DNA of 38,060 nucleotides from Bacteroidota bacterium (GTDB lineage: Bacteria > Bacteroidota > Bacteroidia > Bacteroidales > JABHKC01), in NCBI GenBank assembly GCA_018692315.1, contig JABHKC010000189.1:1-38060 (forward strand). The letters are read 5' to 3'. The notes below the pieces were generated by a model, which saw only the letters and a list, made by a program, of their open reading frames with translations, was not told the origin of the DNA and searched no databases. Positions 2,962 through 32,083 of the stretch are shown piece by piece. A program made the position numbers and the translations under genes. Positions within the stretch are counted from its first letter, which is position 1; each line of letters starts with the position of its first letter.

Positions 2962-4119
2962 CTATTTGAAATATCCGGAGGCATCAAAAGTCATTTTTTG
3001 TGTCGTCTGATTGTGTTTTTTCCATGCTTTTGCAAGTTCCGATAAACGATGATTGCTATAACTGAAAAATTGTTTATAAGCACTACAAAAATACTGTAGA
3101 TTTTTGGCATTTCGATATTTTGGACATCCTCCATAACACATTTCTAACCATGGACATTTTTTGCAATCATTATCTATTTCAGCTTTTAGTTCACCGAAAG
3201 TGTGCTGCTTTTTGCTATTCAGCATATCAATCAATCGATTTTGATGAATATTGCCTAATTTGTTTTTCTTGTTCACAAAAAAATCACAGCTATAAACATC
3301 GCCATTGTGCTCTACCACAAGGTATCCACCACAAGTTTTCTGAAAACTACATTCGGGAACCTGATGCCCTATATGCGCATGAAATGTATTTTCTATAAAT
3401 CGCACTATTGGAGCAGAACCGCCATCACGAATGAAATCGGCATACCACAAATCGAAAATTTTGCACATAAATCCACCCAATTCTTTGGCAGAAACAGAAA
3501 AGTCAAGTATCTGGTTATTTCTATCTTTCTCAAAAACAGGATTAAACTGCAGCCATTGAAATCCTCTTGATTTGTAAAACTGATATATTTTTTCGGCAGA
3601 ATTAACATTCGATTTTGTAATGCAACTTAAAATATTCACAGCTACGCCAGCATTCATTAGCTTCTGAGCATTTTCATTAACTTTTTTCCAACTGGTTTTT
3701 CCATTTTTGTTCAATCTGTATTTGTCATGGATTTCTTCAGTTCCGTCAATCGACAAACCAATCAGAAAATTGTATTTTTTCAGAAAACTAATCCATTCAT
3801 CGTTCAATAAAGTACCGTTTGTTTGCAGGCTATTACCTATTATTTTTCTTTCAGTCTTCCCGAAATGAAGCTGTAAATCTATCAACTTTCTGAAAAATTG
3901 GATTCCTGCCAAACTAGGCTCTCCACCTTGCCAGGTAATATTATATTGATTTCCGGTCTGGTTACTCATTTGACGAATCAACTCTTCGAGCGTGTCGTGG
4001 CTCATTACCGACAAAGACGGGTATAGATTTTCTTTTTCGAGATAGAAACAATAATCGCAATTTAAATTACATTTTGCTCCAACAGGCTTTACAATTATCG
4101 ATTCAAGCGGCTTTTTCAT
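2962..4119 (-). CDS. Anaerobic sulfatase-maturating enzyme (radical SAM, SPASM domain)
   Basis: Converts the active-site Ser or Cys of sulfatases to formylglycine using S-adenosylmethionine and Fe-S clusters, without oxygen, in the cytoplasm. The radical SAM motif CNLNCDYC (Cys17, Cys21, Cys24) binds the catalytic 4Fe-4S cluster. A SPASM-type C-terminus carries the auxiliary-cluster cysteines: CGGYL, YSCDFF, then CKKCPWLEMCYGGCPKYR and a final FCSAY. The start was set at 4119 (MKKPLESIIVKPVG), giving 385 aa. The longer frame to 4200 would overlap the sulfatase gene and adds a low-quality N-terminus. The gap to the upstream sulfatase stop is 11 nt, so the two are almost certainly co-transcribed and this is its dedicated maturase. 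Both sulfatases in the window have serine-type sites. The family assignment is firm. Confidence 0.92.
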   Translation of the reverse strand: MKKPLESIIVKPVGAKCNLNCDYCFYLEKENLYPSLSVMSHDTLEELIRQMSNQTGNQYNITWQGGEPSLAGIQFFRKLIDLQLHFGKTERKIIGNSLQTNGTLLNDEWISFLKKYNFLIGLSIDGTEEIHDKYRLNKNGKTSWKKVNENAQKLMNAGVAVNILSCITKSNVNSAEKIYQFYKSRGFQWLQFNPVFEKDRNNQILDFSVSAKELGGFMCKIFDLWYADFIRDGGSAPIVRFIENTFHAHIGHQVPECSFQKTCGGYLVVEHNGDVYSCDFFVNKKNKLGNIHQNRLIDMLNSKKQHTFGELKAEIDNDCKKCPWLEMCYGGCPKYRNAKNLQYFCSAYKQFFSYSNHRLSELAKAWKKHNQTTQKMTFDASGYFK

Positions 4120-4130
4120 TGATGGTTGAA

Positions 4131-6074
4131 TTATTTCACTATTATTTCGTCGAAAAACATCCAGGCCGGCTTTCCTTCTGCAATATGGCCTTTTGGGCAT
4201 TTGCCAATATTTATAGCTTCTACCTTTATTGACTTTGCCCGGGCAGGTTTAGAAATTTTAGCATGGTATTTCACATTTCCATTTACAGATTGGAATTTGT
4301 CTGATGTGATTTTTTCTAAAACCTCAAAATTTTCACCATCAGTGCTAAACGAAACCACTATTTCTTTTGGTAAAAATATCCATGAACCTTCGTTTTTCAA
4401 AGTGCTAACTATTACAGTGTCAAAACTTTGTTCTTTGTCGAAATGAATTATAGCCTCAAGATTATTTCCATAATACGCCTGCCACGAGCGGTCTTTAAAT
4501 GCAGGCCTGCCAATTTTTCCATCAGTCAATCCTTGAGCTCCTCGTCCGGAATATTTCTTGTTATATTGAGTAAACAACTGAACTTTTGCTCCTACTGCCA
4601 AATGAGAAATATTTGTTTCCATCTCGTAGTTATAATCTGGCTCTCGTAGCCCTTTTCCTTCTATTCCTGTTAAAAAATCTCCAAGTTCTTGCCTGTACTT
4701 TTCGGCTAATATTTGCAATTGTTTCCTTTCTTTAGGAAATTCGTCAATCACATTATTCAACTCGAAAGGATCGCTTTTTAAATTATAAAGTTCCAAACCT
4801 GATTCCAGGAAATTATATTTTCCGGGCAAACCGTTTTTCCCGGGCTCAACATTTGTGTATGACCTGTAAACATGCGGAAAACCCAATTTCCAATCTCCTT
4901 TTCGAACAGCTTGAAGCTCGTTTTCGTTGTAGTAATAACAAAATTCGTCTCGGATGTTTTTACTCGTATCGCCAAACAAGTATGGCAGTATGCTTTGGCC
5001 ATCAATAGTATGATTTGGCAATTTCCCATCGCTTATTTCTGCCAAAGTGGGTAAAATATCCAGCGTAGAAGCGAGATTATTAATTACTAAACCTTTTGGA
5101 ATTTTTCCATGCCAATTCATCACACAAGGAACTTTGTGCCCACCTTCCCAGCTTGTACCTTTGCCTTCGCGCAAACCGGCAGTGGTTCCACCATGATCTC
5201 CAAAATTTTTCCATGGGCCATTGTCGCTCGTAAATATTATCAGCGTATTATCAGCAATTCCGTTTTTTTTCAATGCTTCCACAAGTTGTTTCACCGACCA
5301 GTCGATTTCCATAATTACATCGCCATATTTGCCATATTTGCTTTTGTCGGCAAACTTTTCGGAAACTCCAAGCGGCACATGAGGCATTGGGTGCGGAAAA
5401 TACAAGAAAAAAGGTTCGGAGGCTTTTCTGTTTATAAAATCGACAGCTTTCCTTGTCAGAATTGTAGTGATACTATCTTGATCTTCAATCCTCTCAAAAA
5501 CTTTGGTTTTTTTGTTTCCTTCAATTAATCGAAGTTTTGGATATTTGCTATTAATTTTTGGTTTGTTGCCATAAGTTACAGGCCACATATCGTTAGAGTA
5601 CGGCCAACCCACATACTCGTCGAAGCCATGCTGAAGAGGCAGAAATTTTTCTTGATCGCCCAAATGCCATTTTCCGAAAATTCCGGTTGCGTAGCCTTGC
5701 TCTTTCAACATTTCTGCTAAAGTTAGTTCAGATGCCGCAATTCCTTTCTCGGAATTTGGGGTCAATGCTCCGGTTATGCCAATTCTGTTTGGATAACAGC
5801 CGGTTAGCAATGATGCTCTTGAAGCAGAACTTACAGCTTGAGAAACGTAAAAATTTGTAAATTTTACACCATTTTCGGCCAAGCTATCAATTGTTGGTGT
5901 CAGAATATTTTCTGAACCAAAACAGCCCAAATCGCCATAGCCCTGGTCGTCGGTAAAAACAAGTACAATGTTTGGTAATTCATTGGTTTGCCCAAAAGAT
6001 GTTCCGGCAATGCCTGCCGACAACAAGCCTGCTGCAATTTTTTTCGAGTTTGAAAATTTTAAATAGTTTTTCAT
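4131..6074 (-). CDS. Ser-type sulfatase (S1 family) with C-terminal F5/8-type-C-like domain
   Basis: Hydrolyses sulfate esters, probably on a polysaccharide in the periplasm. From the chosen start (6074) it is 647 aa with a signal peptide ending near SFGQ. The sulfatase domain opens with the metal-binding VFTDDQGYGD (Asp42, Asp43). The modification motif is SSASR at residues 82-86, a serine-type S-x-A-x-R in which Ser82 would become formylglycine, followed by ASLLTG. GKWHLG and FTSDNGPW are also typical. After about residue 495 a beta-sandwich-like domain begins at LTDGKIG and ends GKPAWMFFDEIIVK. It is shared with the sulfatase at 10637 and the DUF4838 protein at 29837. The frame opens at 6140, but the 22 extra residues spoil the signal peptide. 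The specific sulfate position and S1 subfamily cannot be set here. Confidence 0.9.
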   Translation of the reverse strand: MKNYLKFSNSKKIAAGLLSAGIAGTSFGQTNELPNIVLVFTDDQGYGDLGCFGSENILTPTIDSLAENGVKFTNFYVSQAVSSASRASLLTGCYPNRIGITGALTPNSEKGIAASELTLAEMLKEQGYATGIFGKWHLGDQEKFLPLQHGFDEYVGWPYSNDMWPVTYGNKPKINSKYPKLRLIEGNKKTKVFERIEDQDSITTILTRKAVDFINRKASEPFFLYFPHPMPHVPLGVSEKFADKSKYGKYGDVIMEIDWSVKQLVEALKKNGIADNTLIIFTSDNGPWKNFGDHGGTTAGLREGKGTSWEGGHKVPCVMNWHGKIPKGLVINNLASTLDILPTLAEISDGKLPNHTIDGQSILPYLFGDTSKNIRDEFCYYYNENELQAVRKGDWKLGFPHVYRSYTNVEPGKNGLPGKYNFLESGLELYNLKSDPFELNNVIDEFPKERKQLQILAEKYRQELGDFLTGIEGKGLREPDYNYEMETNISHLAVGAKVQLFTQYNKKYSGRGAQGLTDGKIGRPAFKDRSWQAYYGNNLEAIIHFDKEQSFDTVIVSTLKNEGSWIFLPKEIVVSFSTDGENFEVLEKITSDKFQSVNGNVKYHAKISKPARAKSIKVEAINIGKCPKGHIAEGKPAWMFFDEIIVK

Positions 6075-6104
6075 CCTTAAATAATTAATTCCAAAATCCG
6101 GTTT

Positions 6105-6112
6105 CAAAATTA
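6105..6112 (-). promoter_or_regulatory. Possible Bacteroidota -7 box for the sulfatase-maturase pair
   Basis: On the minus strand this reads TAATTTTG, matching the Bacteroidota -7 consensus TAnnTTTG, with 30 nt between it and the chosen ATG. A TTG lies about 25 nt further upstream, slightly longer than the usual spacing to the -33 TTTG. The sequence is AT-rich, so a chance match is possible. Confidence 0.35.
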
Positions 6113-6194
6113 GTTTTTTAAATTGATAAAAAAATGACAAGTTTCTATCGGTAGTTATTTAGATTGTCTGAATTGCCAAATCAAAACTCATTCT

Positions 6195-10636: not shown

Positions 10637-12673
10637 CTACCTTAAAATAATTTCATCAATAAACATCCATGCTTTTTGCCCTTCTCCTTTGTGCCCTTTA
10701 GGGCAAAGTCCAATATTTTCAGCATCAATTTTCAGGTAGTCAATTATTTCGCCTGGCAAAAACAAATACTCAGTTATTTCTCCTCCTATGATTCTGCTTG
10801 TCGTCTTAATTTTATGCAGGACTATTTCTTTATATTCTAAATTTGAGGCTTTTACGGCAAGTTGTATTTTTTTTGGTTTAAAAATCCAGGCGTTTGGAGC
10901 ATCCAAAAATCTGAGAATAATTGTATCAACAATTTGCTTTTGAGACAGTTCCCATTCCAAATTTAAATCATTGCCTTCAAACCCAAACCAGGAGTCATAA
11001 TTACCTGGATTTAGAGCAGTAATATTTTCAATTATTCCGTCGTGCAAAGTGTTTTCTCCGGTTCCTTTATATTTTTTGCCTGGAGGAAATTTCAAGCTCT
11101 CTAATCTAATATTTGCTAAATTCTTAATAGTTTTTGTTGCAAGAGGATATGATTTTATAGTGTCGCCATAATTATTCCTTTGAAATTCAAGCTCTTTCAA
11201 TAATTCAATTTTAATCTGAGCATAAGCTTCATCATCAAAAACAGAATTATTTTCTGAAGGATCTTTTTGCAAATCGTAAAGTTCCCATTCATCAATTGGA
11301 TGATAAAAATGTATTAGCTTAAATCTGTCGGTTCGTATTCCATAATGGCGGGCAACATTGTGAGGACCTGGATATTCAAAATAGTGATAATAAACACTTT
11401 GTCGTAGTTCTGTATCATTGTTTTCAAGAAGATTGCAGATAGATAATCCTTGCATTTGCTCCGGAATTTGCATACCTGCATATTCGAGAATTGTTGGTGC
11501 AAAATCAATATTCATTACCAATTGTTCGCGTTTTTGCCCTGCTTGTTTCAATTTTGGGTTTCTAATAATTAATGGCATACCAAAACTTTCTTCATACATA
11601 AATCTTTTGTCGAACCAGCCATGTTCGCCAAGAAAAAACCCTTGATCGGAAGTGTAAATAATTATCGTATTTTCGTATAGTCCTTTCTCTTTCAGATAAT
11701 TAATTATTTCTCCAACACTTTCGTCCACAGCATCGATGCAAGCCAAATAATCTTGCATATACCACTGAAATTTGTATTCTGCCAAACTTTGCTCATCTCC
11801 ATCAAGGCCTATATATTCATCATACCTTTGTCTGTAAAGTATCATCCATTTTTCCCTGTCTTTCTTGCTAAGTCTGGACAGCCCCACATATTTTGCAGCA
11901 ATGGTTTCGGCAGAATCCGGATGAATTATTTTTAAATCGTAAGCAAGCTCCATATCGTTCCCAATACTCAATTTTTGCATTTTCGCGGCATGCCTTTTTT
12001 CATAGTTGTCGTGGAAATTTTCAGGCAATGGGAATTTTGTGTCTCTGTAATTTTCAATCTTTTCAAGCTCTGGTAACCAATTCCTATGTGGTGCCTTATG
12101 ATTTAGCATTAAGAAAAATGCCTGGCTTGTGTCAGTTTTGCTTAGCCATGAAATTGCATCCTTGGTAATTATATCTGTTACATAACCATCAATTTGCTGC
12201 TTTTTGCCATTCGTAATAAAATCGGGATTATAATAATGACCCTGGCCGGGTAAAATATTCCAGTAGTCGAATCCTGAAGGTGCGGTTTTGAGATGCCATT
12301 TCCCAACTAAGGCAGTCTGGTAGCCTCCATGCCGAAGCACTTTCGGAAAACTATTTTGAGAAGTGTCGAAACCTACATAATTGTTATACAGTCCATTAAG
12401 GTGATTGAAAGTCCCAGTCAGAATACTGGCACGACTTGGTGCACTAATTGCATTTGTACAGAAACAATTTGTAAACTGCACACCTTCTTCAGCCAGTTTA
12501 TCAATATTTGGAGTTTTGTTTAATGTACTACCGTAGCATGAAATTGCTTTGCTACTATGGTCGTCGCTCATTATGAAAATTATGTTGGGTTTTTGCTGCT
12601 GGGCATTTTGACTGCAAGCGGCAAGCCCTATTCCTCCGAGAATGGTGATATTTTTTAAATTTGCTCTCATCAT
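10637..12673 (-). CDS. Lipoprotein Ser-type sulfatase (S1 family) with C-terminal F5/8-type-C-like domain
   Basis: 678-aa sulfatase. The N-terminus has a lipoprotein signal with lipobox LAAC (Cys20), so it is membrane-anchored. Metal-binding MSDDHSS (Asp37, Asp38) and the modification motif SAPSR (residues 77-81, Ser77) follow, making it serine-type and dependent on the anaerobic maturase encoded at 2962. GKWHLKT, YTSDQGFFLGEHGWFDKRFM and YEESFGMPLIIR are typical of the arylsulfatase/GlcNAc-6-sulfatase-like branch. Subfamily and regiospecificity cannot be fixed by eye. The last ~145 residues (from LHDGIIEN to AWMFIDEIILR) match the tail of the sulfatase at 4131 and the DUF4838 protein at 29837. 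It is the last gene of the minus-strand run that begins at 21394, with a 49-bp gap to the GH2 gene. Confidence 0.9.
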   Translation of the reverse strand: MMRANLKNITILGGIGLAACSQNAQQQKPNIIFIMSDDHSSKAISCYGSTLNKTPNIDKLAEEGVQFTNCFCTNAISAPSRASILTGTFNHLNGLYNNYVGFDTSQNSFPKVLRHGGYQTALVGKWHLKTAPSGFDYWNILPGQGHYYNPDFITNGKKQQIDGYVTDIITKDAISWLSKTDTSQAFFLMLNHKAPHRNWLPELEKIENYRDTKFPLPENFHDNYEKRHAAKMQKLSIGNDMELAYDLKIIHPDSAETIAAKYVGLSRLSKKDREKWMILYRQRYDEYIGLDGDEQSLAEYKFQWYMQDYLACIDAVDESVGEIINYLKEKGLYENTIIIYTSDQGFFLGEHGWFDKRFMYEESFGMPLIIRNPKLKQAGQKREQLVMNIDFAPTILEYAGMQIPEQMQGLSICNLLENNDTELRQSVYYHYFEYPGPHNVARHYGIRTDRFKLIHFYHPIDEWELYDLQKDPSENNSVFDDEAYAQIKIELLKELEFQRNNYGDTIKSYPLATKTIKNLANIRLESLKFPPGKKYKGTGENTLHDGIIENITALNPGNYDSWFGFEGNDLNLEWELSQKQIVDTIILRFLDAPNAWIFKPKKIQLAVKASNLEYKEIVLHKIKTTSRIIGGEITEYLFLPGEIIDYLKIDAENIGLCPKGHKGEGQKAWMFIDEIILR

Positions 12674-12722: not shown

Positions 12723-14777
12723 TCATTCTACATAAATAATAAATTCCTCTATTACCATTTTGTTACCACTTCTCGCTTTCACAGAAATTTTATTCTCCCT
12801 TTTGGTTAATATAATTTCCTTACTCACAAATTGAACAGAGTTAATTCCACTTTGCATTTTACCCAAATTCTTTCCATTTATAATGAGTTCAGGAGCACCA
12901 AAATTGCAATATGCTTTTACAATATAATTCGAAGTGTTTATTGTATCGTTTCTTTTTCCAGCGATATGTAAAACTGGAGAATCTGCCCAATTTGCTTTGT
13001 ACCAGAAGAATGCGTCTTTTTTCATTTTTCGGTCGTATGTAATCAGCCCTTTATGATTTCTCCCCTTTATTCCGCCTCTATCCCATTCCGGTACCGAAAA
13101 ATCGAACATATTCCAAACATAGGAAGCCCAAATGTGAGGACATTCTTCAATGGCAGCCCAGCATATTTCATGGTAATATGTTTGATATCCTTCGGCGAAA
13201 AACTTACCTTTTGGTGAAGGTGGGCTTAAGTCTGAACTTTGATGATTAATGTTACCTCCTGCACCATATTCAGAAATGGAGGTTCTTATATCAGGCTTTT
13301 TTTTATGATAGTTTTTTATCCAGTTTTCGAGTCCTGATGGATTGCCTCCATACCAGCCGGTATATTGATTAAATCCTTGTAAATCTGTCAGTTCATGAAT
13401 TTCATGGTCATGCACCCACCAAATATTACTTACGGCCACTGTATATCGTTCGGGATCGAGGTTTTTCGCAAGATTATGCAATTTTTTTGTGAGCTCAACG
13501 GGTTCTTGAACTACAGCTCCTTTTACGACTTCGTTGTGAACTCCCCAAACAAAAATTGAAGGATGGTTGAAATTTTGTTTTATCAATTCGGTCATTTGTT
13601 GTAAAGCATTATCATCTGCACCTTCTTTATAGCCATTCACAAATGGAATTTCTGCCCAAATCAAAAAACCCATGGAATCGGCTAATTTGTAAATATACTC
13701 ATCTTGCTGATAATGAGCCAAACGAATAGATGTTGCTCCAATTTCATTAATTAATTCCATATCGGTTTTGTGATGCTCGGGAAGCAGGGCATTGCCAATA
13801 TTTTCCCATTCCTGATGACGACATACCCCATAAAGTTTGTAAGGTTCACCATTTAATATAAAACCTTTTTCTTCATCAATTTCGAAATAACGTATGCCAA
13901 CATCTTGAATAATCACATCGAACAATTCACCATTGTTAAATATTTCGGTTTTTAAAGTATAAAGAAATGGATCATTTTTGCCATGCCAAAGTCTGGGATT
14001 TTTTATTTTAAGCTTTGCATTAAAAACCTGCATCCCGACCGGCTTAAGCTCAATATTTTGGAGTTCGTTTGCCACAGGTTTATTGCCGTTTTTCAGCATT
14101 GTATTTTTAAGGATAATTTGCTTAATAGTTGAACTTTCATTTTTCAACTGGCATGAAATTCTAAGTTCAGCTTGTTTTTTATTAACTTTTTTCTGATACA
14201 CAAAAATCCCGTTTGAAGCATGATCTTCGAGGTTAAAATGCAAATTGTTAGTAACAATCAAATTTACACTACGATAGATTCCTCCATAGATTCCGAAAAG
14301 GAAATTGTCTTTTGGATATGAATTATTTAGCTCGTTATTTACTTTTACAAAAATTGTATTTTGAGTATTATTTTCAATAAAATCAGTTATTTCGAACACA
14401 AAAGCTGAATAGCCCCCCAAATGTTTTCCAATGAATTTTTTATTGACAAAAACTTCGGCATATTGCCCAACTCCATCGAAACGCAAAAAATAGTGCTTCC
14501 CTTCTGCTTTTTCAATTGTAAGGTTCTTTTTGTACCATGCTGTGCCAAAATTTACTTTTCCGCCGGATTGAATATCTTTATTGTTCCATGTGTGAGGGAT
14601 GTTTACATCAGTCCACGAATTTTCGTCAAGTGTGAGAAAATCAATTTCTTGCTTTGGCTGAAAAAATTTCCAGTCTTGATTTAAATTTACGATTTCACGA
14701 GGCTGAGAGAAACATGAAAAGCCGCATAAAATGATATAAAATGATATACTCAGTTTCAATAAAATTTTAGTTTTCAT
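12723..14777 (-). CDS. Glycoside hydrolase family 2 (beta-galactosidase-like)
   Basis: 684 aa, exported (signal peptide ending near CFSQ). The GH2 order is clear: a sugar-binding jelly roll (NLNQDWKF, then NIPHTWNNKD, FGTAWYKKN and LRFDGVGQYAEVFVNKKFIG), an Ig-like domain, then the TIM barrel with GVCRHQEWENIGNALLPEHH. The acid/base is Glu416 in VWGVHNEVV and the nucleophile is Glu503 in TSISEYGAGG. NMFDFSVPEWDRGGIKG is also typical. At this length it lacks the extra C-terminal domains of long LacZ proteins. Beta-galactosidase is most likely, but GH2 also includes beta-glucuronidase and beta-mannosidase. It sits between a fucosidase and a sulfatase on the same strand, fitting exo-acting trimming of a sulfated glycan. 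Confidence 0.9.
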   Translation of the reverse strand: MKTKILLKLSISFYIILCGFSCFSQPREIVNLNQDWKFFQPKQEIDFLTLDENSWTDVNIPHTWNNKDIQSGGKVNFGTAWYKKNLTIEKAEGKHYFLRFDGVGQYAEVFVNKKFIGKHLGGYSAFVFEITDFIENNTQNTIFVKVNNELNNSYPKDNFLFGIYGGIYRSVNLIVTNNLHFNLEDHASNGIFVYQKKVNKKQAELRISCQLKNESSTIKQIILKNTMLKNGNKPVANELQNIELKPVGMQVFNAKLKIKNPRLWHGKNDPFLYTLKTEIFNNGELFDVIIQDVGIRYFEIDEEKGFILNGEPYKLYGVCRHQEWENIGNALLPEHHKTDMELINEIGATSIRLAHYQQDEYIYKLADSMGFLIWAEIPFVNGYKEGADDNALQQMTELIKQNFNHPSIFVWGVHNEVVKGAVVQEPVELTKKLHNLAKNLDPERYTVAVSNIWWVHDHEIHELTDLQGFNQYTGWYGGNPSGLENWIKNYHKKKPDIRTSISEYGAGGNINHQSSDLSPPSPKGKFFAEGYQTYYHEICWAAIEECPHIWASYVWNMFDFSVPEWDRGGIKGRNHKGLITYDRKMKKDAFFWYKANWADSPVLHIAGKRNDTINTSNYIVKAYCNFGAPELIINGKNLGKMQSGINSVQFVSKEIILTKRENKISVKARSGNKMVIEEFIIYVE

Positions 14778-14832: not shown

Positions 14833-16173
14833 TCAATTGCTTTCAATTGCTTTTGATTTTTTGTCGTATAACTTAATTTTTCCGTCTAGTTTAATAGCAA
14901 TAACGGTGTAATATTTATCAATCACATTTTCGGGGATATCAATATAAATAAGTCCCGGGTATTTGCTCCACCAAACATTACAAAACACTTCACGGTTCAG
15001 AATTGTCCCATTTCCAACAACATGAGCCCTATGAATTTTGTTTTCGATGCCTCGCAAAACAATTTTTCCATCTTTTGGAATATCTCTCAAATACAGGAAT
15101 AATTCAGTGCTATCTTTTGATAGAGCTGTTGGTCCGTAATAATATTCGTAAGGAATGCCTCGCTTGGTTTTATAAATGGCTTCTTTATGTTTTGAAACCC
15201 AAGTCCCTAATTCAGTGAGAATATTTTCTTGCTCGGCAGGAATTGTTCCATCGCTTTTTGGGCCAATATCTAACAAAAGATTGCCTCCTTTGCTGAGGCA
15301 CTCAACAAAAATATCGATAATTTGCTGCGGCGATTTATAGTGCTTGTCGTTCGACTGGTATCCCCATGAGTCGTTCATAGTCATGCAAAGTTCCCAGTAG
15401 TCGGCCTTTGGTGCATGAATGGGCATTCCAATTTCGGGAGTTGCATAATCGCCTTTTCCTCTCAATCTTGAATTGAAAATTACTTCAGGTTTATCCTTCG
15501 ACAAAAAATTCTTGATTTCAGTAACTTTCCATTCCTCGGCAGAGTGTTCCCAATCGCCATCGAACCACCAAACATCAGGGTCGAATTTCTTTTTTAATTC
15601 CTTCATCTGACCATGATAATATTTTTCAAATTTTGCCCAACGTTTGGGCTCATCCTCAATTTTATACCTGTTCACTTTTCGTGTAAAATGAGTATAATCG
15701 GCGTAAGACCAATCCGGTAGGGAATAATACAAGCCAACTTTTATATCATTGTTTCTCAGCGTCTTAACAAAAGGAGCTATCAAGTCTTCTTTTGCAGGAG
15801 AATTGTTCACACTATTGAAGTTGCCAAATTTGGTGTCCCAAAGTGCAAAACCATCGTGATGCTTTGTGGTGATTACCGAATATTTCGCACCACTTTTTTT
15901 AATTAGACTTGCCCAATATTCGGGGTCGTAGTTTTTTGCATCGAAATCTTCTGCTTGTTTCAGGTAGTCTTCATGCGAAATGTAGCCGTTAAAAAACGAC
16001 CAGGATTCCCCAATTCCTAAAACTGAATAAATACCCCAATGTATGAAAATTCCAAGTTTAGCCTCTTGAAACCATTCCATTTTTTTGTGGTAGTCGGCTT
16101 GAAGTTCCTGATTTTGTGCTTGCCCAAAAACCATGGAGAAAGCCAAGATTGTTAGTATTACAATTTTTCTCAT
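14833..16173 (-). CDS. Alpha-L-fucosidase (GH29), first copy
   Basis: 446 aa from the chosen ATG (MRKIVILTILAFSMVFGQAQ, a good signal peptide). The longer frame to 16251 adds 26 residues that break the signal. It releases alpha-linked L-fucose with retention. GH29 landmarks are GIFIHWGIYSVLGIGESW, TTKHHDGFALWDT, GLYYSLPDW, and the nucleophile region VWWFDGDWE with Asp205. LLLDIGPKSDGTIPAEQ follows, and the C-terminus is a short beta-sandwich. The acid/base in this family is variable and was not assigned. The second GH29 lies just upstream with a 213-bp gap that contains only short repeats (CGCAGATTT motifs). The two copies are strongly diverged and so probably have different linkage preferences. 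Confidence 0.92.
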   Translation of the reverse strand: MRKIVILTILAFSMVFGQAQNQELQADYHKKMEWFQEAKLGIFIHWGIYSVLGIGESWSFFNGYISHEDYLKQAEDFDAKNYDPEYWASLIKKSGAKYSVITTKHHDGFALWDTKFGNFNSVNNSPAKEDLIAPFVKTLRNNDIKVGLYYSLPDWSYADYTHFTRKVNRYKIEDEPKRWAKFEKYYHGQMKELKKKFDPDVWWFDGDWEHSAEEWKVTEIKNFLSKDKPEVIFNSRLRGKGDYATPEIGMPIHAPKADYWELCMTMNDSWGYQSNDKHYKSPQQIIDIFVECLSKGGNLLLDIGPKSDGTIPAEQENILTELGTWVSKHKEAIYKTKRGIPYEYYYGPTALSKDSTELFLYLRDIPKDGKIVLRGIENKIHRAHVVGNGTILNREVFCNVWWSKYPGLIYIDIPENVIDKYYTVIAIKLDGKIKLYDKKSKAIESN

Positions 16174-16386
16174 ACTTAAAACTTTTTTCAATTTATAATT
16201 TATAAAACAAAAAATATGTCCCGCAGATTTCGCAGATTTTCGCGGATTCATTCATAATTCATCACTCTTCCGAAAGCTTTCAAAATAATAATTCATAATT
16301 CATAATTTTCAATTTCCAAACACAATATATTTATACAATAAAAAAAGTGTCTCGCAGATTTTGCAGATAAATACATAACACATAAC

Positions 16387-17865
16387 TTATAACTCACAAT
16401 TTTCAATTTTAAAACACCAAATATATTTAGTGGGTGGGTTATTTCGTAGCTTTTCGGGTACAGTGATAATTATTCCTGTTCCATTTTCTTCCCAGCTTAA
16501 ATTTTCTTTACTCCCGATTAGACTTACGGAACTCCCTTTTTCAGGAACAAAAGAATCTATATTTATATATTTTGGGATAACTTTTTCAGACTCATCGTTC
16601 ATGTAAAAAGCATAGACCGTTTTAGTATCCTTTTTATTTGTATAACAAATTTTGCCTTCCTTGAATGGAGCAATAGCTCGTGTCGAATATATTGCCTCGC
16701 TATTTACGTCCATCCAGTCGCCAATTTCTTCTAACAATTTGTAGGCATCTTTATGCAAACTGCCATCGTGGGAAGGGGCGAAATTTAGCAATAAATTTCC
16801 TCCTTTGCTAACGATATCTACCAGCATCTTAATTGTACTGATTCCGGATTTATATTTTGCATTTTCGGTGTATGACCAGCCTCCGCCTGAAATTATGCAT
16901 GATTCCCAGGGATAGGGAAGCGATTTTTCAGGAACTTTGTTTTCGGGTGTCAAATAGTTTTGATTTTTCCCTTCTACAGCTCTGTCCACAACAATTAGTC
17001 CTGCCTGCTTTTTTCGTGCTTTTACAACCAAATCGTCCATCTTAATATCCTGATTTACAATTGTGCCGTTCATAAAGCCGGTTTTGCTCTTTGCTACTCT
17101 TTTATCATAAAATCCCTGAATAAGCTCTCTGGACTGCTTCATAACCCAACCCCCGTCTAACCAAAGAATATCTATGCTGCCGTAATCGGTAAGTAATTCC
17201 ATGATTTGATTGTGAGTAAAGTCGGCAAAATTTTGCCATTTTTCGGGATATTTTTCTGGGTCGTAATTCACATTTCTGTCCTTGTTAGGGAAGTAATGCC
17301 ACCAGTAATCTTCTGAATGCCAGTCGGGTTTCGAAAAATATGCCCCTACCCACAAGCCTTCATTTCTATACGAATTGAACAATTCTTTAGTAATATTTGC
17401 CTTTTTGTTTGTACTGAAAGGAGTTTTTGAGTCGGTGATTTTGTAATCGGTATATTTTGTGTCGAACATGCAAAATCCATCGTGATGTTTTGTTGTGAAA
17501 ACGAGATATTTCATACCTGCATTTTTAGCTGCTTCTGCCATTTTATCCGGATTGAATTTTATAGGATTGAATGTTTTTTGAAGATTTTCATAGGCTTCGA
17601 CATAAGCATTGTAGGTTTTGGGTGTTCCTGTTTTTTTTCGCTGACACCATCCATAATCTTCCGGGCATATTGACCAGGATTCAACTACTCCCCACTGCGA
17701 GTATGGTCCCCAGTGCATGAGCATTCCGAATTTTAGATCTTGCCAGTTTTCCAATTTTTCCAAAACTAAAGGATCGCTTTCAGGATAATATTTTTGCTTA
17801 TCGTGTTGCGAAATCAGGTTCAAACTTAGAATTAAGCTCAAAAAAATAGTTAGATGTTTTTTCAT
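16387..17865 (-). CDS. Alpha-L-fucosidase (GH29), second copy
   Basis: 492 aa with a signal peptide (MKKHLTIFLSLILSLNLISQ). The GH29 core is present: FGMLMHWGPYSQWGVVESWS, TTKHHDGFCMFDTKYTDYKI, AYFSKPDWHSEDYW, and nucleophile motif ILWLDGGWV with Asp237. PWESCIISGGGWSY and GGNLLLNFAPSHDG follow. A Cys-containing insertion after the first motif (ICPEDYGWCQRKKTG) distinguishes it from the copy at 14833. The product is free fucose, and location is periplasmic or secreted. It is 20 nt downstream of the DUF1016 nuclease gene and on the same strand. A TATATTTAGTGGG motif in its 3' part has no evident meaning. Confidence 0.92.
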   Translation of the reverse strand: MKKHLTIFLSLILSLNLISQHDKQKYYPESDPLVLEKLENWQDLKFGMLMHWGPYSQWGVVESWSICPEDYGWCQRKKTGTPKTYNAYVEAYENLQKTFNPIKFNPDKMAEAAKNAGMKYLVFTTKHHDGFCMFDTKYTDYKITDSKTPFSTNKKANITKELFNSYRNEGLWVGAYFSKPDWHSEDYWWHYFPNKDRNVNYDPEKYPEKWQNFADFTHNQIMELLTDYGSIDILWLDGGWVMKQSRELIQGFYDKRVAKSKTGFMNGTIVNQDIKMDDLVVKARKKQAGLIVVDRAVEGKNQNYLTPENKVPEKSLPYPWESCIISGGGWSYTENAKYKSGISTIKMLVDIVSKGGNLLLNFAPSHDGSLHKDAYKLLEEIGDWMDVNSEAIYSTRAIAPFKEGKICYTNKKDTKTVYAFYMNDESEKVIPKYINIDSFVPEKGSSVSLIGSKENLSWEENGTGIIITVPEKLRNNPPTKYIWCFKIENCEL

Positions 17866-17885: not shown

Positions 17886-18893
17886 TCATTTGCTAAAAAT
17901 TCTTTTAAACTGCTCATCGCTGGGTAAACTTTGAGCAATATCTTTGGGTAACTCAGAGTAGCTGTATGTTGCTACACCCATAGGTTTATTTGCAATTTCC
18001 AGTGCGTATTCTACTGTAATATGGCTTTTTGTTATGCCTATGCTTAGATTGTCTTCGGGGTATTTTACAGTTTTATCGAGCAAGTGCAGATACCAATTTA
18101 ATTGCTGACTATATTCGGGTTTAAATTCATTAGTTTTTAGTTCTATAGCTATCATCGATTTCAATTTTCTGTGGTAAAACAGTAAATCAATAAAATACTC
18201 TTTATCATCAAGTTCTAAACGAAATTGTTGTCCCATAAATGCAAAATCAGCTCCAAATTGTCCGAGCATTTTGGTAATATTAGTTACGATTGCATTTTCG
18301 AGCTGCTTTTCGTTGTGATAGTCCGGCAAGTTTAAAAATGATAAATCGTAGTCATCTTTAAATTGCATAGTGTATTTCGCAAGTTCTTGTGTATTAATGG
18401 ATTTTCCGAAATTGTTCTGAAATTTGTTGTGCTGCGAAAAGAGGTCAATTTTAATTTTCTCTTCTAAAATACTTCTGCTCCAAGCCTCATTTTTTGCTTT
18501 TTGTAAATAAAATTCTCGTTGGGCTTTGTCTTTTATTTTGCTGAATATAAGCACTGTATGCCCCCAGTGTAATTTGGTAACAAGCTGTTGCCAAATTGTG
18601 TTGTCTTCAACTTCTTCAAAAACAAACCGCATTAAGCGAAGGTTTCGTTCCGAAAAACCTTTTACTCCAATAAATTCAGCCTGTAAATCTACTGAAAGCT
18701 GTTTTATGACCGATGTTCCCCAGCCGGTTTTTGTCTTTTCAGAGATTGTTTTGCCAATATCGAGATATGCTAAAATCATTTCAGAATTTACGGCACTGTA
18801 ACTTTTGTATTGTGCTTGTAATATTCTTTCTTTTAAGGAAATTAGCGTATTCAGATAGTCATTATTTTGTAGTTCATTATTCATAAAATGCAA
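17886..18893 (-). CDS. DUF1016 (YhcG-like) PDDEXK nuclease domain protein
   Basis: 335-aa cytoplasmic protein. The N-terminal helical DUF1016 domain (SAVNSEMILAYLDIGKTISE, GWGTSVIKQLSVDLQAEFIG, FSERNLRLMRFVFEE) precedes a PDDEXK nuclease fold with EYFIDLLFYHRKLK (Asp236) and MIAIELKTNEF (Glu251, Lys253), then YSQQLNWYLHLLD and the tail PSDEQFKRIF. Such proteins are often found with mobile elements or restriction loci; biochemical function is poorly known. Its place inside a glycan operon, 32 nt after the preceding gene and 20 nt before a fucosidase, is odd and suggests insertion of a cargo gene without disrupting transcription. MHFM offers two start choices 9 nt apart. Confidence 0.9.
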   Translation of the reverse strand: MHFMNNELQNNDYLNTLISLKERILQAQYKSYSAVNSEMILAYLDIGKTISEKTKTGWGTSVIKQLSVDLQAEFIGVKGFSERNLRLMRFVFEEVEDNTIWQQLVTKLHWGHTVLIFSKIKDKAQREFYLQKAKNEAWSRSILEEKIKIDLFSQHNKFQNNFGKSINTQELAKYTMQFKDDYDLSFLNLPDYHNEKQLENAIVTNITKMLGQFGADFAFMGQQFRLELDDKEYFIDLLFYHRKLKSMIAIELKTNEFKPEYSQQLNWYLHLLDKTVKYPEDNLSIGITKSHITVEYALEIANKPMGVATYSYSELPKDIAQSLPSDEQFKRIFSK

Positions 18894-18925: not shown

Positions 18926-21394
18926 TTATATTTTTTCAGTTCTATCATAAACTAAAAATTCAATTTTTGCAGCTGCATTTTCTTGTGGGTTTTTAAAACT
19001 GCAATCGAAATTAACGCTTTGTTGCCCGGTTGGAATAATTAACTTTTTCGTATCCAATTTTACTTCTGAAACTATATTCCAATTTTTATCATAGATTGTT
19101 GCAAGCCTATCTTCTGTGGTTTTAATTGTTTGTCCGGATTTCAAATCTATTGGTAATTCTACACTTTTTTGATTATTAATTTCAATTTTAATATTTGAAA
19201 TATCTGCATTTTCGGCAGTGATAATAAATTTCAGAGTTTGCTCGTAGCATTTATTTTCAAATTTGAATGTTGAGAACAACGGCTCGCCGGGCTGTTTAAT
19301 TTTTTTCCGGTGAGTATATTTGTGAGAGTATATTTCTTTTAAAATCAAATCTTTATCTTCTGATTTTTTAAGCCTGAATTCTGTAGAAATGTCTTTCATC
19401 TTATTCTTCAGATTTTCATCAAAAACATCGTTCAATCTGGCAGTTTCCCAAATATTTAAGATTGCAAATATTTGCTCGGTATTCCCATTTTTCCTGAGGG
19501 TTTCGAGATTTGTATAAAAAGCAAAACCTGCGTCGTAGCCGGCAGAACGAGCCATTAGCCATTCAATATCTTCAACGGTAGTTTCCGGTGTCATTTTGAA
19601 CCAGCCAAGCATACCGGGCATTAAATTTCTTTTAAAATATTTTTGATTCAACAATCTATATTCGGTCTGACTTTCGCGAAATCCTGCATACCAAGGCTCG
19701 CCCCAATTCATACGTGAGTAGATGTGCCAAAAATAATGTCCCGATCTGCTTGCTCCCAACAAAAAGTGGCTTTTTATGTTTTCGTCTAATTTGTCGAACC
19801 AATCTTGTGCAAAAAGTGCTTCAGCATAATTTCCCATTCCGCTTGAGTGGGTTCCTTCCAATCCATCGAAATCGAGCATACGCACTCCGGTTTGGTTCAT
19901 GAAATCTGCCACAATTTCAGCCATTTCCTTGTTTAAGGAAGCATCGCCAAGGAAAACTTTGTAGCCATGGTCGGCAAGTTTACTAATTTTGGTTTTTGTA
20001 TCGTGAGATACCGGATTTGTGCCAAACGCTCCACGAGTGCAATTTTTCAGTATCCAGAGTGGATTTTCTGAAATCGAACCATAAGTAATAATTTCATCTT
20101 CAATAACTACTGCTCGCAAATGATTGTTTCTGAACTGATTAAAAAAGTCCGGATTTTCAATTTCAATTTCTGTTTGTTTTTCATCTATCTTGGCAACTAC
20201 AAAACTACTGCCAACTTTTGCCAAACGTTTGTCGGGTACGGGAGTAACAAAATTGTCGTTCGTACTTATGAAATTTGTGAGCGTGTGTGTGCCAATATAA
20301 ATTCCCTGCGATTCTGCTTTGCGTACACATTCCTTCATGCCGGCAATTCCGTTAGGAAACATTTCTTTGCTTAGCGGAATGTGCCCCCAGCTCGAAAACG
20401 GATGACCATGATATAAATAATTGAAACCTGATTTTTTCGTGTATTCAATACATTCATCAATGTTTTGTTCAGAGAAATTCATGATGAGGTATGAGGAATT
20501 TATTGTTTTTGAAGTTTTTGTCCATTCCCCATTTATGCTTGGGTGGGGCAATCCTTCAGCAATCTCAATTTGGCCTATTGTTGAAAGGCAGGAATCTGTT
20601 TCGCAAGCAAATAGTGCAATTTTTGAACCAACAATACCGCCATCATCATATGCTGGAGCTAAATATTTGTCGTGGTTCAGGTTTTTAATGATTCTATCGT
20701 TTATTCTGTTTCGGGTATATGCTTGAAGGCTACTGCCATACTTTGTAGGTTTTGCTGCTTCAACCGAGTATAAAACGCCACGTTTTCCTTTTTCTACATC
20801 AGAAAAATCGTCTTGTTCGAAAATGTCTAATTGTGGCAAATGGTCGTTATCTTTCCATGGATAGCCTCCCAAAGTTTTAGGATTCAGAGCTTGTAGTCCG
20901 AAAGTGAAACTTTTGTTTTGTGCAATTCCTATGGTTTCGCCAATGCTCCCTTTGATTGTGCTGGCATAAGGTCCCCAAATTATTGCATCAACTTTCAAAT
21001 CGGAGCTTACTGAAACGCATTCAAAAGTTATATACTTGTCGAGAGAAATTGCCTTAATTCCTATTTGAACTCCATTTTCGAAAGAGCATTGAATTTCCTG
21101 ATTTCCATTTTTAAAAACAATTTTGGCTGGAAAAACAATGGTGCTGTCTATTTTTAAAGAAACCAGAGGAGATTTCAAATTTTCCGGGCAATAGTTTTGA
21201 TTGGTTTTTTTATCAATAATTCCGATAATTTGCCCTTTTTGGTCGATTTCTATTTTTAGATCCTGCATTTCGTATTTCACATATTCTGTTTCAGAACATG
21301 AAAAAACAATAAGATAAATTAGGAAAATCGTTGTAAACAAAGATAATAGCCTTGTTTGTGCAAATAAATGCTTGATACTACATCTCAACTTCAT
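18926..21394 (-). CDS. Lipoprotein of unknown family, candidate glycoside hydrolase
   Basis: 822 aa from the ATG at 21394, where a Lys/Arg-rich start leads into a hydrophobic segment and lipobox-like VFSC. Residues ~45-290 look like a beta-sandwich (mutarotase-like: IIDKKTNQNYCPENLKSP, then IWGPYAST, IGIAQNKSFTFGLQALNP). Residues ~300-650 look like a (beta/alpha)8 barrel: FNYLYHGHPFSSWGH, GIYIGTHTLTN, HGYKVFLGDAS, RMLDFDGLEGTHSSG (Asp508 and Asp510 as candidate catalytic or substrate-binding acids), LLGASRSGHYFWHIYSRMNW. A beta-rich tail closes the protein. I cannot assign a CAZy family. The context (fucosidases, sulfatases, GH2) and the DFDG strand support a hydrolase. It leads the minus-strand run of genes. 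The 27 upstream bases to 21421 could add nine residues. Confidence 0.7.
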   Translation of the reverse strand: MKLRCSIKHLFAQTRLLSLFTTIFLIYLIVFSCSETEYVKYEMQDLKIEIDQKGQIIGIIDKKTNQNYCPENLKSPLVSLKIDSTIVFPAKIVFKNGNQEIQCSFENGVQIGIKAISLDKYITFECVSVSSDLKVDAIIWGPYASTIKGSIGETIGIAQNKSFTFGLQALNPKTLGGYPWKDNDHLPQLDIFEQDDFSDVEKGKRGVLYSVEAAKPTKYGSSLQAYTRNRINDRIIKNLNHDKYLAPAYDDGGIVGSKIALFACETDSCLSTIGQIEIAEGLPHPSINGEWTKTSKTINSSYLIMNFSEQNIDECIEYTKKSGFNYLYHGHPFSSWGHIPLSKEMFPNGIAGMKECVRKAESQGIYIGTHTLTNFISTNDNFVTPVPDKRLAKVGSSFVVAKIDEKQTEIEIENPDFFNQFRNNHLRAVVIEDEIITYGSISENPLWILKNCTRGAFGTNPVSHDTKTKISKLADHGYKVFLGDASLNKEMAEIVADFMNQTGVRMLDFDGLEGTHSSGMGNYAEALFAQDWFDKLDENIKSHFLLGASRSGHYFWHIYSRMNWGEPWYAGFRESQTEYRLLNQKYFKRNLMPGMLGWFKMTPETTVEDIEWLMARSAGYDAGFAFYTNLETLRKNGNTEQIFAILNIWETARLNDVFDENLKNKMKDISTEFRLKKSEDKDLILKEIYSHKYTHRKKIKQPGEPLFSTFKFENKCYEQTLKFIITAENADISNIKIEINNQKSVELPIDLKSGQTIKTTEDRLATIYDKNWNIVSEVKLDTKKLIIPTGQQSVNFDCSFKNPQENAAAKIEFLVYDRTEKI

Positions 21395-29836: not shown

Positions 29837-32083
29837 CTACTCCACCAAAACTTCATCCAAAAAAATCCAGGAGGGTTTGCCAAAACCTCTGTGCCATTCG
29901 GGGCATTGTTTCAATGAAATTGCTGTTATTCGCAGATATTGTGCTTCAACAGCTTCGAAATCGAAATTGAAGGGAACAGATTTTACAAGATAATTTCTAT
30001 CATCAATATCGCCTTTAATGCTGCCAACTTTTTTATAATCAGTTCCATTTTTGGAAATCTCAACGGATACTTCAATTGGGAGAAAAACCCATGAATTCAC
30101 TGCTTTGAGGAAATTCATGCTAACTTGAGATATTATTTCGGACTTTTGCAAATCAATTTCTACAATCATATCGCTGCCTTCGAAACCTAACCAATTGTTA
30201 TGAAAATCGAGGTCTCCAAACAGACCGTCAGTAAGCGATTTTTCTTTGCCTACCGGATATTTTTCGCTGGCTTTTGTGAGCAAATTTATAGTTTTCCCTT
30301 TTGCCTTGTTTGGTTTTATCATCATATTGAGTTTTCTACGGGTATATTCGTAATAATCTGCAACAAGAAAATTTCTCTCATTGATTCGATTAACTCCGGT
30401 AATTTCCGTCAACTCTACAAATCTGTCGAGATAATTCATCATTTCTTCGCGAAGTGTAATTTCACCACCACTTTTTTCAAAATACGACAGCTCCCCAATG
30501 TTTTTATTTAAAGAAATATCAAGATAGGCAAAATCTACTGGCAATCTGGCTCTAAAAACTCTCATTAAATACACTGAATCGTTTTGAACCGATTTTTCCG
30601 CTTCATCCATAAGGTTTTTATATTTTTTCAGCAAATCGGGGCTAAGGTATGAATCGTAGTAGTTTAAAGGGAAACCATAAATATTCAAAAATTCATTTTC
30701 CTGATTTTCGATCAATGCTTCGTGATAAAGGTCGAAATACGATTTTATGTAGCTGTTTGCCTCGCCGTAATATTTCCCCAAAAAATCGTTGATTATAGAA
30801 TCGGCATCAATGTACGGGTCCCACAAAAGTTTTGAGATTAGGTATTGTTTCAGTTCAACCAAATCTGACCAGTTTCGGCTGCTACCTTGCTGAAACATCA
30901 AATCGACATTGTGCTTGTCGAAAAACTGAATGTTGGACTGCAAAACATGAAAATTTGGGAAGGGTGTCAGATAGTTTTTAAACTGAACAACATAATCCCA
31001 CAGAAAAATATTGTTGGTAAGTTTTGCCCAATCTGCCATATCTTTCACAAAACCGGAGCTCCTTTTGTCGTCAGCTAAGGGCATGCTTCGGTTGCATTCA
31101 ATAGAGCAAAACATAATATTAACATTTTCAAGAGGTTTGATATTTGTTGGTGCCGAGCGTGTGAACTGATAGGCAAGGGTTGAAATTTGTTTATCGGGAA
31201 ATTCTTTTGCAATTTCGTTTGCCATAAAAACATATGCTCCCGAAATCCCTCCATAATTGTCGTACATTTTTTCGCAATCTGTGCATGTGCAATAATTGTA
31301 GCAATCGTTTTGCGAAACCGACCAATATTTCATTTCAGGTTTTTTTTCAATTTTTTTTCGCAGATTTTCTTTCAAAAGATTCATAAGCTCACGATTGCTC
31401 AAACAAAGCTGCCCATCGCTTATCCGATGATTTCCAACCAAAGAAAAATATTCAGGATGCTCATCAAAATATTTTTCCGGAGGTACAAGTTTTTGGAATG
31501 TATGCACAAAACTCCCCCAATTGTAGAGTTGCTCAATTTTGTGCCAGTATCGAAATTTTTCATCGCGAATGCCGGGGAAAAGTGTCCTTCTGAAAGAAAA
31601 AGCCGGCTTGTAGATTTTAAATTTTTCAGGAAGGATAATTTCAGAAAATTTTGGGATATATTCCTCATTTACATAAAGCAGCCTGCATCCCAGAAATTCT
31701 TCGACGAAAGTATAGGTAGCATAAATATTAGATTTTGCATTATTCCCGGAAATCAAAATGTTTTCGTCTATTTTTTTAATGAAAAAAGCATCCTCTTCTA
31801 AAGAATTTAACTCAATTATTGTTTTTGAATCTGTTATCAATTCATTGCCAATCAATATGTATTTTCCATTTTCATTGATATTGGTTTTAGTTTCTAAACG
31901 AACACCTGAGATTTTGAAAATGTAGTTTGAAATTTCCTGAGCGGCAAATTTTGTCAGACTGTCAGCTTTTTCTGAAACAACAATTGTATAGTCGGATTTT
32001 TTGTTTTCTATAAGTTTAATTTTATTGTTGCAACTTATACAAAAAAGTGCAATGAAGGAAACAGCAAGGAGGTAGTTTTTCAT
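29837..32083 (-). CDS. DUF4838 lipoprotein, GH20-like architecture, with F5/8-type-C-like C-terminus
   Basis: 748-aa lipoprotein: the signal MKNYLLAVSFIALFCISC ends in a lipobox Cys. Residues ~25-125 look like the alpha/beta N-domain seen before GH20/GH67 catalytic domains (TKFAAQEISNYIFKISGV, then KYILIGNE). The DUF4838 barrel follows (FVHTFQKLVPPEKYFDEHPE, WSVSQNDCYNYCTCTDCEKM, NIMFCSIECNRSMPLADDKR, FLWDYVVQFKNYLTPFPNF, LMFQQGSSRNWSDLVELKQY, LLWDPYIDADSIINDFLGKY). The C-terminal ~135 residues (SLTDGLFGDL to GKPSWIFLDEVLVE) match the tails of both sulfatases. DUF4838 proteins are common in PULs, with presumed but usually unproven glycosidase activity. It belongs functionally with the sulfatase cluster although 8.4 kb of opposite-strand genes separate them. 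Confidence 0.85.
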   Translation of the reverse strand: MKNYLLAVSFIALFCISCNNKIKLIENKKSDYTIVVSEKADSLTKFAAQEISNYIFKISGVRLETKTNINENGKYILIGNELITDSKTIIELNSLEEDAFFIKKIDENILISGNNAKSNIYATYTFVEEFLGCRLLYVNEEYIPKFSEIILPEKFKIYKPAFSFRRTLFPGIRDEKFRYWHKIEQLYNWGSFVHTFQKLVPPEKYFDEHPEYFSLVGNHRISDGQLCLSNRELMNLLKENLRKKIEKKPEMKYWSVSQNDCYNYCTCTDCEKMYDNYGGISGAYVFMANEIAKEFPDKQISTLAYQFTRSAPTNIKPLENVNIMFCSIECNRSMPLADDKRSSGFVKDMADWAKLTNNIFLWDYVVQFKNYLTPFPNFHVLQSNIQFFDKHNVDLMFQQGSSRNWSDLVELKQYLISKLLWDPYIDADSIINDFLGKYYGEANSYIKSYFDLYHEALIENQENEFLNIYGFPLNYYDSYLSPDLLKKYKNLMDEAEKSVQNDSVYLMRVFRARLPVDFAYLDISLNKNIGELSYFEKSGGEITLREEMMNYLDRFVELTEITGVNRINERNFLVADYYEYTRRKLNMMIKPNKAKGKTINLLTKASEKYPVGKEKSLTDGLFGDLDFHNNWLGFEGSDMIVEIDLQKSEIISQVSMNFLKAVNSWVFLPIEVSVEISKNGTDYKKVGSIKGDIDDRNYLVKSVPFNFDFEAVEAQYLRITAISLKQCPEWHRGFGKPSWIFLDEVLVE

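Follow-up and report, generated by a model that had tools for sequence, protein, structure and literature searches.

A predicted α-glycosidase of a Bacteroidota bacterium, from an apparently unnamed family that is linked in part to fucose genes

The present work concerns a gene of a Bacteroidota bacterium, encoded on the minus strand of contig JABHKC010000189.1 (assembly GCA_018692315.1), of which positions 1 to 38,060 were analyzed; this whole stretch is referred to below as the window. The gene product, a protein of 822 amino acids (aa), is on balance probably a retaining and probably exo-acting α-glycosidase, probably secreted as a lipoprotein, from an unnamed family of the α-galactosidase/fucosidase superfamily, and would serve in the degradation of sulfated fucose-containing glycans. 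The predicted fold, the remote homology and the invariant residues together make a retaining α-glycosidase the most likely activity, and the gene neighborhood points to glycans that contain fucose, and that are often sulfated, as the likeliest class of substrate. The activity, the retention of configuration, the acid/base residue, the exo action and the substrate are all predictions. The reading frame itself is real and conserved, and its product is a member of a large and widespread bacterial family.

In searches of Pfam and NCBIfam copies of 2025-26, the protein matched no glycoside hydrolase (GH) family of Pfam up to an E-value of 10, nor any PDB sequence up to the same threshold. Its sole Pfam match (Ribosomal_L5_C, E 0.092) and its sole NCBIfam match (FadD3 ligase, E 0.16) are chance matches and were rejected as its identity. 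The Melibiase and Melibiase_2 models (GH36/GH27) were matched neither by the protein (up to E 10) nor by 12 diverse homologues (up to E 1), and the same holds for Alpha_L_fucos (PF01120, GH29) and for the models of GH97, GH31, GH101 and GH129. Across Pfam, the 12 homologues gave no GH family up to E 1, and their matches below cut-off included Ovate, AP_endonuc_2, CBM_11 and LPAM_1. A family profile run against PDB sequences returned three chains, an α-galactosidase and two A-antigen galactosaminidases, at E 1.5 each over positions 287-335, which is a hint only. A description of the family was not found in the open-access literature, as judged from titles and abstract openings. A first-pass annotation, made from the sequence letters, had left the protein unassigned and proposed a new family; the former holds against Pfam, NCBIfam and PDB sequences, and the latter against Pfam and NCBIfam, while CAZy may already contain the family. 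The protein would thus apparently represent an unnamed family inside a known superfamily.

Of 395 genomes drawn from across the phylum, 13 contain the family (E <= 0.001), that of the window among them, and these fall in 10 of 171 genera. A pattern scan of a species-level genome collection yielded at least 593 stretches, at least 447 of them confirmed as relatives. The 80 confirmed stretches retained for analysis derive, among others, from Bacteroidota, Gemmatimonadota, one Planctomycetota metagenome-assembled genome (MAG), one Aminicenantes MAG and unplaced MAGs, and two Embleya plasmids (Actinomycetota) carry relatives at 26-27% identity that are without annotation there. Residue counts refer to 89 distinct homologue sequences, and neighborhoods to 93 homologue loci (92 distinct, L017 and L108 being identical in sequence), many of them short stretches and with gene labels given partly by BLAST. 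Alignment A1 comprises 12 sequences, with L007, L010 and L015 excluded, and alignment A2 comprises 78 of the 80 loci, with L042 and L050 excluded for an in-frame stop. One in-frame stop each is found in the otherwise open frames of L007, L010, L042 and L050, which are either decayed copies or sequence errors. L105 holds three frames of the family on one contig, adjoining GFO/IDH/MocA-type genes, and at L019 no such frame is labelled, probably since the open reading frame (ORF) picker took antisense frames.

The AlphaFold2 model, built from 79 aligned sequences and divided into domains by DSSP, has a predicted local distance difference test score (pLDDT) of 92.1 and a predicted template modelling score (pTM) of 0.87. 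It exhibits an N-terminal β-sandwich, a (β/α)8 barrel with an inserted β-domain and a C-terminal sandwich, so that model and fold search agree with the sandwich and TIM-like barrel proposed earlier (Table 1). The barrel strands, in our reading of the DSSP output, comprise residues 302-304, 326-329, 366-372, 506-510, 545-548, 561-562, 594-600 and 622-627, and the stretches 506-510, 545-548 and 561-562 are numbered here β4, β5 and β6. The top Foldseek matches are an α-galactosidase (8k1a, E 4e-17), a GH31 enzyme (5oht, 1.6e-15) and a GH101 enzyme (5a59, 1.8e-15), and a 3,6-anhydro-galactosidase of GH129 (5opq) follows at 2e-14. With VIA-align the top match is a galactosaminidase (8x1b, presumably of GH36; Z 20.5, root-mean-square deviation (rmsd) 5.8 over 466 residues), and a Thermotoga α-galactosidase (1zy9) reaches Z 19.9 with an rmsd of 5.2 over 409. 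Chains which we take to be GH27 enzymes superimpose on the barrel (Z 17.3-18.5, rmsd 3.2-3.7 over 252-289 barrel residues), and no GH29 structure was recognized among the 50 VIA-align matches listed. Of the fold relatives with solved structures, most (GH36, GH31 and GH129) are exo-acting and GH101 is endo-acting; exo action is assumed here by analogy with the majority, where the first-pass annotation had suggested that the protein could be an endo-acting or debranching enzyme.

Remote homology was assessed with four query profiles, made from the 89 distinct sequences or from the 12 of A1, at full length or as the barrel without its insertion. The subject profiles were those of GH27 (11 sequences), GH36 (3), GH31 (15), GH97 (15), GH29 (21) and six other neighboring families. 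Over the four query versions, GH27 reached a probability of 76-93% (best E 4.4e-7), GH29 28-58% and GH36 13-36%, against 1.1-2.5% for GH31 and 2.3-5.6% for GH97. The reversed-profile controls all remained at or below 1.8%, and the six other families at or below 3.3% save for one sulfatase comparison; GH2 and GFO/IDH/MocA, used as further controls, did not exceed 0.2%. With the barrel as query, the GH27 and GH36 matches run from β2 to β4. For GH29 the matched part is 243-245 columns long when the barrel is used without its insertion, but only 63-64 columns at full length. The similarity that tied GH97 to the α-galactosidases was likewise confined to the first half barrel, over 100-150 residues (PMC1249566).

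In local barrel-only alignments, GH27, GH36 and GH29 each set the FDG of the protein, with Asp510, on the nucleophile motif. The alignment with GH29 places YHGHPF opposite the KHHDGF stretch and FDG opposite the nucleophile motif W(F/L)DG, in which the W position is occupied by Asp in the protein (DFDG) and by Ser in most homologues. In the alignment with GH27, the Asp-Asp after β2 falls opposite a gap, residues 328-329 being Tyr-His in most homologues (85/89 and 84/89), and the Lys two residues before the nucleophile corresponds to position 508, which is Ser in 71, Asp in 17 and Tyr in 1 of the 89. Both GH27 features are presumably galactose-binding residues. By these profile matches, the barrel is probably a member of the α-galactosidase-like superfamily (GH27/GH36 and kin), and it resembles GH29 in second place.

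Asp510, at the end of β4, is invariant (89/89), and Glu566, directly after β6, is present in 87 of the 89 homologues. The same arrangement, a nucleophile at the end of β4 and a proton donor at the end of β6, is described for GH27 and GH31 (PMC1249566). Asp510 is the predicted nucleophile and Glu566 the likeliest candidate for the acid/base, for which further invariant or near-invariant acids (E434, E513, E574, E611 and E650) are alternatives. In the proposed mechanism, Asp510 would attack the anomeric carbon, and Glu566 would protonate the leaving group and then activate water. A further carboxylate, Asp508 (β4) or Asp547 (β5) according to clade, may shape the -1 subsite. The first-pass annotation had singled out the acidic strand motif DFDGLEG, with Asp508 and Asp510 as the presumed pair; the motif does lie at the end of β4 and contains the invariant Asp510, but Asp508 is variable, as counted above, and was rejected as the catalytic partner.

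The acid at position 508 is exchanged with one at position 547, on β5. The combinations at 508/547 are S/D in 71 homologues, D/G in 16, D/T in one and Y/E in one, such that exactly one of the two positions is acidic in all 89. The state splits by clade and, on a quickly made tree from which both columns were removed, requires a minimum of two changes; the swap would thus represent one or two events, not many. A loosely comparable situation occurs in GH97, in which a carboxylate resides on β4 or β5 by subfamily (PMC1249566) and which includes both retaining and inverting enzymes (PMC2670981). On this precedent the exchange could mark a mechanistic split, with one clade retaining and the other inverting. 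Such a split is improbable, as Asp510 remains constant here whereas in GH97 the β4 nucleophile itself is exchanged and is lost in the inverting branch, as the inverting base of GH97 is assigned to yet another Glu (PMC2670981), and as the exchange amounts to essentially one or two events.

For part of the family, and in several lineages, the neighborhood is non-random with respect to fucose genes. In addition to the window, with its two GH29 genes, GH29 occurs in 10 of the 93 loci (L038, L056, L061, L062, L063, L064, L070, L091, L092 and L100), GH95 in 6, the L-fucose permease gene fucP in 9 and L-fucose dehydrogenase in 6. The curated NCBIfam cut-offs were exceeded by the one fucP tested and by both L-fucose dehydrogenases tested, and a fuconolactonase-like gene fell below its cut-off. 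The GH29 label that BLAST gave to L054 was rejected, since it came from a fused reference protein and Pfam assigns GH43; this locus lies outside the density test. That test compared 42 loci of at least 20 kb (0.834 Mb of flank) with whole-genome densities in 213 Mb, which hold 234 GH29, 95 GH95 and 43 fucP matches. Seven loci have fucP against 0.17 expected, six have GH95 against 0.38 and seven have GH29 against 0.99. In the phylum sample, 8 of the 13 genomes with the family contain fucP (E <= 1e-80), compared with 99 of the 382 that lack the family (Fisher p 0.008). The fucose-cluster setting proposed at the outset is thereby borne out for part of the family.

In Roseivirga and Algoriphagus a single gene run contains the homologue, fucP and L-fucose dehydrogenase. 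The order in Algoriphagus (L048) is GFO/IDH/MocA, SDR, FAA hydrolase, fuconolactonase-like, L-fucose dehydrogenase, fucP, esterase-like, HAD, the homologue and sulfatase. No GH95 was found in the two Algoriphagus genomes searched (G407 and G409), and each holds one match to the GH29 model, above cut-off and far weaker (E 3e-38 and 2e-37) than typical fucosidases. The protein would act together with GH29 and GH95 fucosidases and with sulfatases on sulfated fucose-containing glycans.

Several observations weigh against this assignment as a whole. The leading Foldseek rows have TM-scores of 0.3-0.4 of the query and rmsd values of 14-21; the Foldseek search suggested as a check on the first-pass annotation did return glycoside-hydrolase-type structures, but with low TM-scores and from several GH families alike. 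GH13 and GH31 chains also attain VIA-align Z values of 17-18, and the fold alone therefore singles out no family. Among the profiles, the sulfatase control against the full-length query reached 21%, which is counted as noise but lies inside the GH36 range, so that the GH36 values are insufficient by themselves; when the A1 barrel is forced into a global alignment with GH36, moreover, Asp510 does not fall on the nucleophile. The divergent homologues L012 and L013 lack Glu566, L013 having an Asp one residue before that position and L012 no acid there. As for the neighborhood, the density excess derives from few genera and, counted by lineage (fucP 3, GH95 4, GH29 5), gives Poisson p values of 8e-4, 6e-4 and 3e-3; the Fisher p becomes 0.02 once the window's own genome, in which fucP lies on another contig, is left out. 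Genes of sugar clusters travel together anyway, and the density comparison covers fucose genes and no other sugar's pathway. Finally, only 17 of the 93 loci contain GH29, GH95 or fucP, and 76 contain none of them in the stretch examined, hence the fucose link may hold for part of the family. These 76 loci and the in-frame stops in four homologues would favor a lipoprotein that binds glycans or has a structural role and whose barrel has decayed, or else an enzyme unrelated to fucose that is carried in sugar clusters. Carboxylates and aromatics near the barrel are strongly conserved, which argues otherwise, and this alternative is unlikely.

If the protein is an α-glycosidase, the released sugar is tentatively α-L-fucose, slightly favored over a D-galacto sugar, a choice that sequence cannot settle. 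Fucose is suggested by the resemblance to GH29 and by the lack of the galactose signature of GH27, and a D-galacto sugar by the folds of GH36, GH101 and GH129. It is conceivable that the enzyme itself cleaves α-L-fucosyl (or α-L-galactosyl) linkages, as a new fucosidase or fucanase with a barrel between GH27/36 and GH29. The Roseivirga and Algoriphagus runs that hold fucP and L-fucose dehydrogenase are consistent with this, as are the two Algoriphagus genomes without GH95 and with one weaker GH29-model match each, in counts that cover GH29 and GH95 among the fucose-releasing families, to which GH107, GH139, GH141, GH151 and GH168 also belong. The profile of GH29 ranks second and, when only the barrel is compared, aligns over 243-245 columns with FDG on its nucleophile motif, yet GH27 surpasses it in all profile comparisons, the leading fold matches listed act on D-sugars, and at other loci GH29 or GH95 adjoins the gene.

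The same fold matches (α-galactosidases, the A-antigen galactosaminidase, the endo-α-GalNAcase and the 3,6-anhydro-galactosidase), together with GH27 as best profile, would fit an enzyme that, like those of GH36, GH101 and GH129, takes off a D-galacto cap, which may be α-Gal, α-GalNAc or galactose in a sulfated or anhydro form. The glycans trimmed in this way would be galactans, fucosylated or sulfated, or mucin-type glycans. GH109-like genes, which adjoin homologues at L061 (Pfam) and at L090, L094 and L103 (BLAST), and the GH2, GH29 and sulfatase genes of the window run are compatible with such a substrate. This possibility is slightly the less favored of the two; against it, the D-galactose signature residues of GH27 are absent, and the linkage to fucP and fucose dehydrogenase in Algoriphagus genomes devoid of GH95 is not explained by it alone. 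The GH129 model PF11308 matched none of 148 genomes, and no control genome was positive either, so that an absence of GH129 is not established thereby. Hints of a phosphorylated glycan in some lineages come from Balneolaceae (L017, identical to L108, and L018), in which the gene stands between SusD and a calcineurin-like phosphoesterase on its upstream side and a type I phosphodiesterase after it, and from L090, with a calcineurin-like gene nearby. A 'Metallophos' label at L103 was given by BLAST only, and Pfam gave no family.

Between β3 and β4, the barrel carries an inserted small β-domain, which folded alone with a pLDDT of 81.5. Its best structural matches are phage proteins, namely the JBD30 baseplate (Z 9.3), VP1 (9.1) and GP4 (8.5), followed by another phage tail tube (7.2), a capsule lyase and the phage Chi tail tip (6.7) and ATP synthase barrels (below 6); Foldseek gave E 0.013 at best. 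Best Z values of 7-8 are common without kinship. The most frequent weak Pfam match, Rcc01698_C, was found in 5 of the 12 homologues (best E 0.0024, all below cut-off), and all five fall inside the insertion. These two weak signals, from fold and sequence, agree in faintly suggesting a phage-tail-like domain, which may line the rim of the active site.

In comparison with known enzymes, the protein shares with clan GH-D (GH27/GH36) the sandwich and barrel (GH36), the Asp at the end of β4 and the acid after β6, in their predicted roles, and the profile match from β2 to β4. It differs in the lack of a Pfam match, of the Asp-Asp after β2 and of the Lys before the nucleophile, as well as in the phage-tail-like domain and in the fucose neighborhood of part of the family. 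With GH29 (clan GH-R) it shares a profile match, the FDG of W(F/L)DG and a genomic vicinity at some loci, yet it lacks a PF01120 match and possesses a large N-terminal sandwich and the insertion. The α-specific sandwich-plus-barrel enzymes of GH101 and GH129 are among the best Foldseek matches, a likeness of fold alone, as no sequence match accompanies it. GH97 resembles the family in its β4/β5 carboxylate and in its distant GH27 link through the first half barrel (PMC1249566), and differs in the constancy of Asp510 and in its low profile values. GH31 yields good fold matches, yet low profile values and no Pfam match.

The gene is a single open frame of 822 codons from an ATG and is present in a single copy in its genome; an alternative upstream TTG start would give 831 aa. 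At the N-terminus, a hydrophobic signal leads into VFSC (Cys33), which is lipobox-like by eye, and an acidic SETE comes next. A stricter lipobox pattern was not matched by the protein and was matched by 45 of the 89 homologues in their first 60 aa. The length given in the first-pass annotation is therefore confirmed by the open frame, and the designation as a lipoprotein is likely only. As described there, the gene heads a minus-strand run with two GH29 genes, a GH2 gene and a sulfatase gene, but a YhcG-type nuclease gene within the run, next to the head gene, went unmentioned. The successive gaps in the run (head gene, nuclease, GH29, GH29, GH2, sulfatase) measure 32, 20, 135, 55 and 49 bp. 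The nuclease gene, 20-32 bp from its neighbors within a run of sugar genes, is perhaps a mobile-type gene whose insertion was recent or is tolerated.

Table 1. Features of the 822-aa protein and of its surroundings in the window
Feature	Position	Strand	Basis or remark
Coding sequence, 822 aa, probable secreted lipoprotein of an unnamed glycoside hydrolase family	18926..21394	-	ORF and homologues
Signal peptide and lipobox-like VFSC, residues 1-33	21296..21394	-	by eye
N-terminal β-sandwich, ~residues 39-264	20603..21280	-	DSSP; within range spanned by GH36/GH31 structural matches
(β/α)8 barrel, ~residues 283-690	19325..20548	-	model and GH27/GH36/GH29 profile matches
Inserted small β-domain with RGAFGT motif, residues 378-482, between β3 and β4	19949..20263	-	folded alone
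C-terminal β-sandwich, ~residues 697-821	18932..19306	-	DSSP
Asp508 codon, β4 half of carboxylate swap	19871..19873	-	
Asp510 codon, predicted catalytic nucleophile, end of β4	19865..19867	-	
Gly547 codon, β5 half of carboxylate swap	19754..19756	-	Asp in 71/89 homologues
Glu566 codon, predicted acid/base, directly after β6	19697..19699	-	
DUF1016/YhcG-type PDDEXK nuclease gene, inside run	17886..18893	-	
GH29 α-L-fucosidase	16387..17865	-	
GH29 α-L-fucosidase	14833..16251	-	
GH2	12723..14777	-	
Sulfatase	10637..12673	-	
Second sulfatase, with borderline F5/8-type C domain	4131..6140	-	
Radical SAM/SPASM protein	2962..4200	-	by domains
DUF4838/GH67N protein	29837..32083	-	

Elsewhere in the window, the radical SAM/SPASM protein is probably an anaerobic sulfatase maturase, as judged from its position beside the second sulfatase, and DUF4838 proteins recur close to some homologues of the 822-aa protein. 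Twin repeat proteins of 983 and 986 aa are encoded at 22896-25847 and 26787-29747; Pfam detects FG-GAP repeats and a secretion-system sorting tail in the first, and the second is alike by eye. On the minus strand at 32170-37950 lies a repetitive protein of 1926 aa, with repeated blocks and, by eye, an apparent C-terminal sorting tail. Two neighboring proteins (89-886 and 1273-2796) have similar GNSY/GNSF starts and appear by eye to be SGNH-type hydrolase-like, the second with a PKD-like stretch and a sorting tail.

A broader proposal, in which the unnamed family bridges clans GH-D and GH-R as an α-L-fucose-releasing enzyme with a GH36-like chassis, a phage-tail-type insertion by the active site and a carboxylate moved between neighboring strands, is speculative and rather unlikely to hold in all its parts; if true, it would tie the α-galactosidase and α-fucosidase clans through one barrel. 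At least 447 stretches of a species-level genome collection encode a relative of the protein, yet no Pfam or NCBIfam model matches it. If it acts on sulfated glycans that contain fucose, the annotation of fucoidan and mucin degradation would be missing an enzyme.

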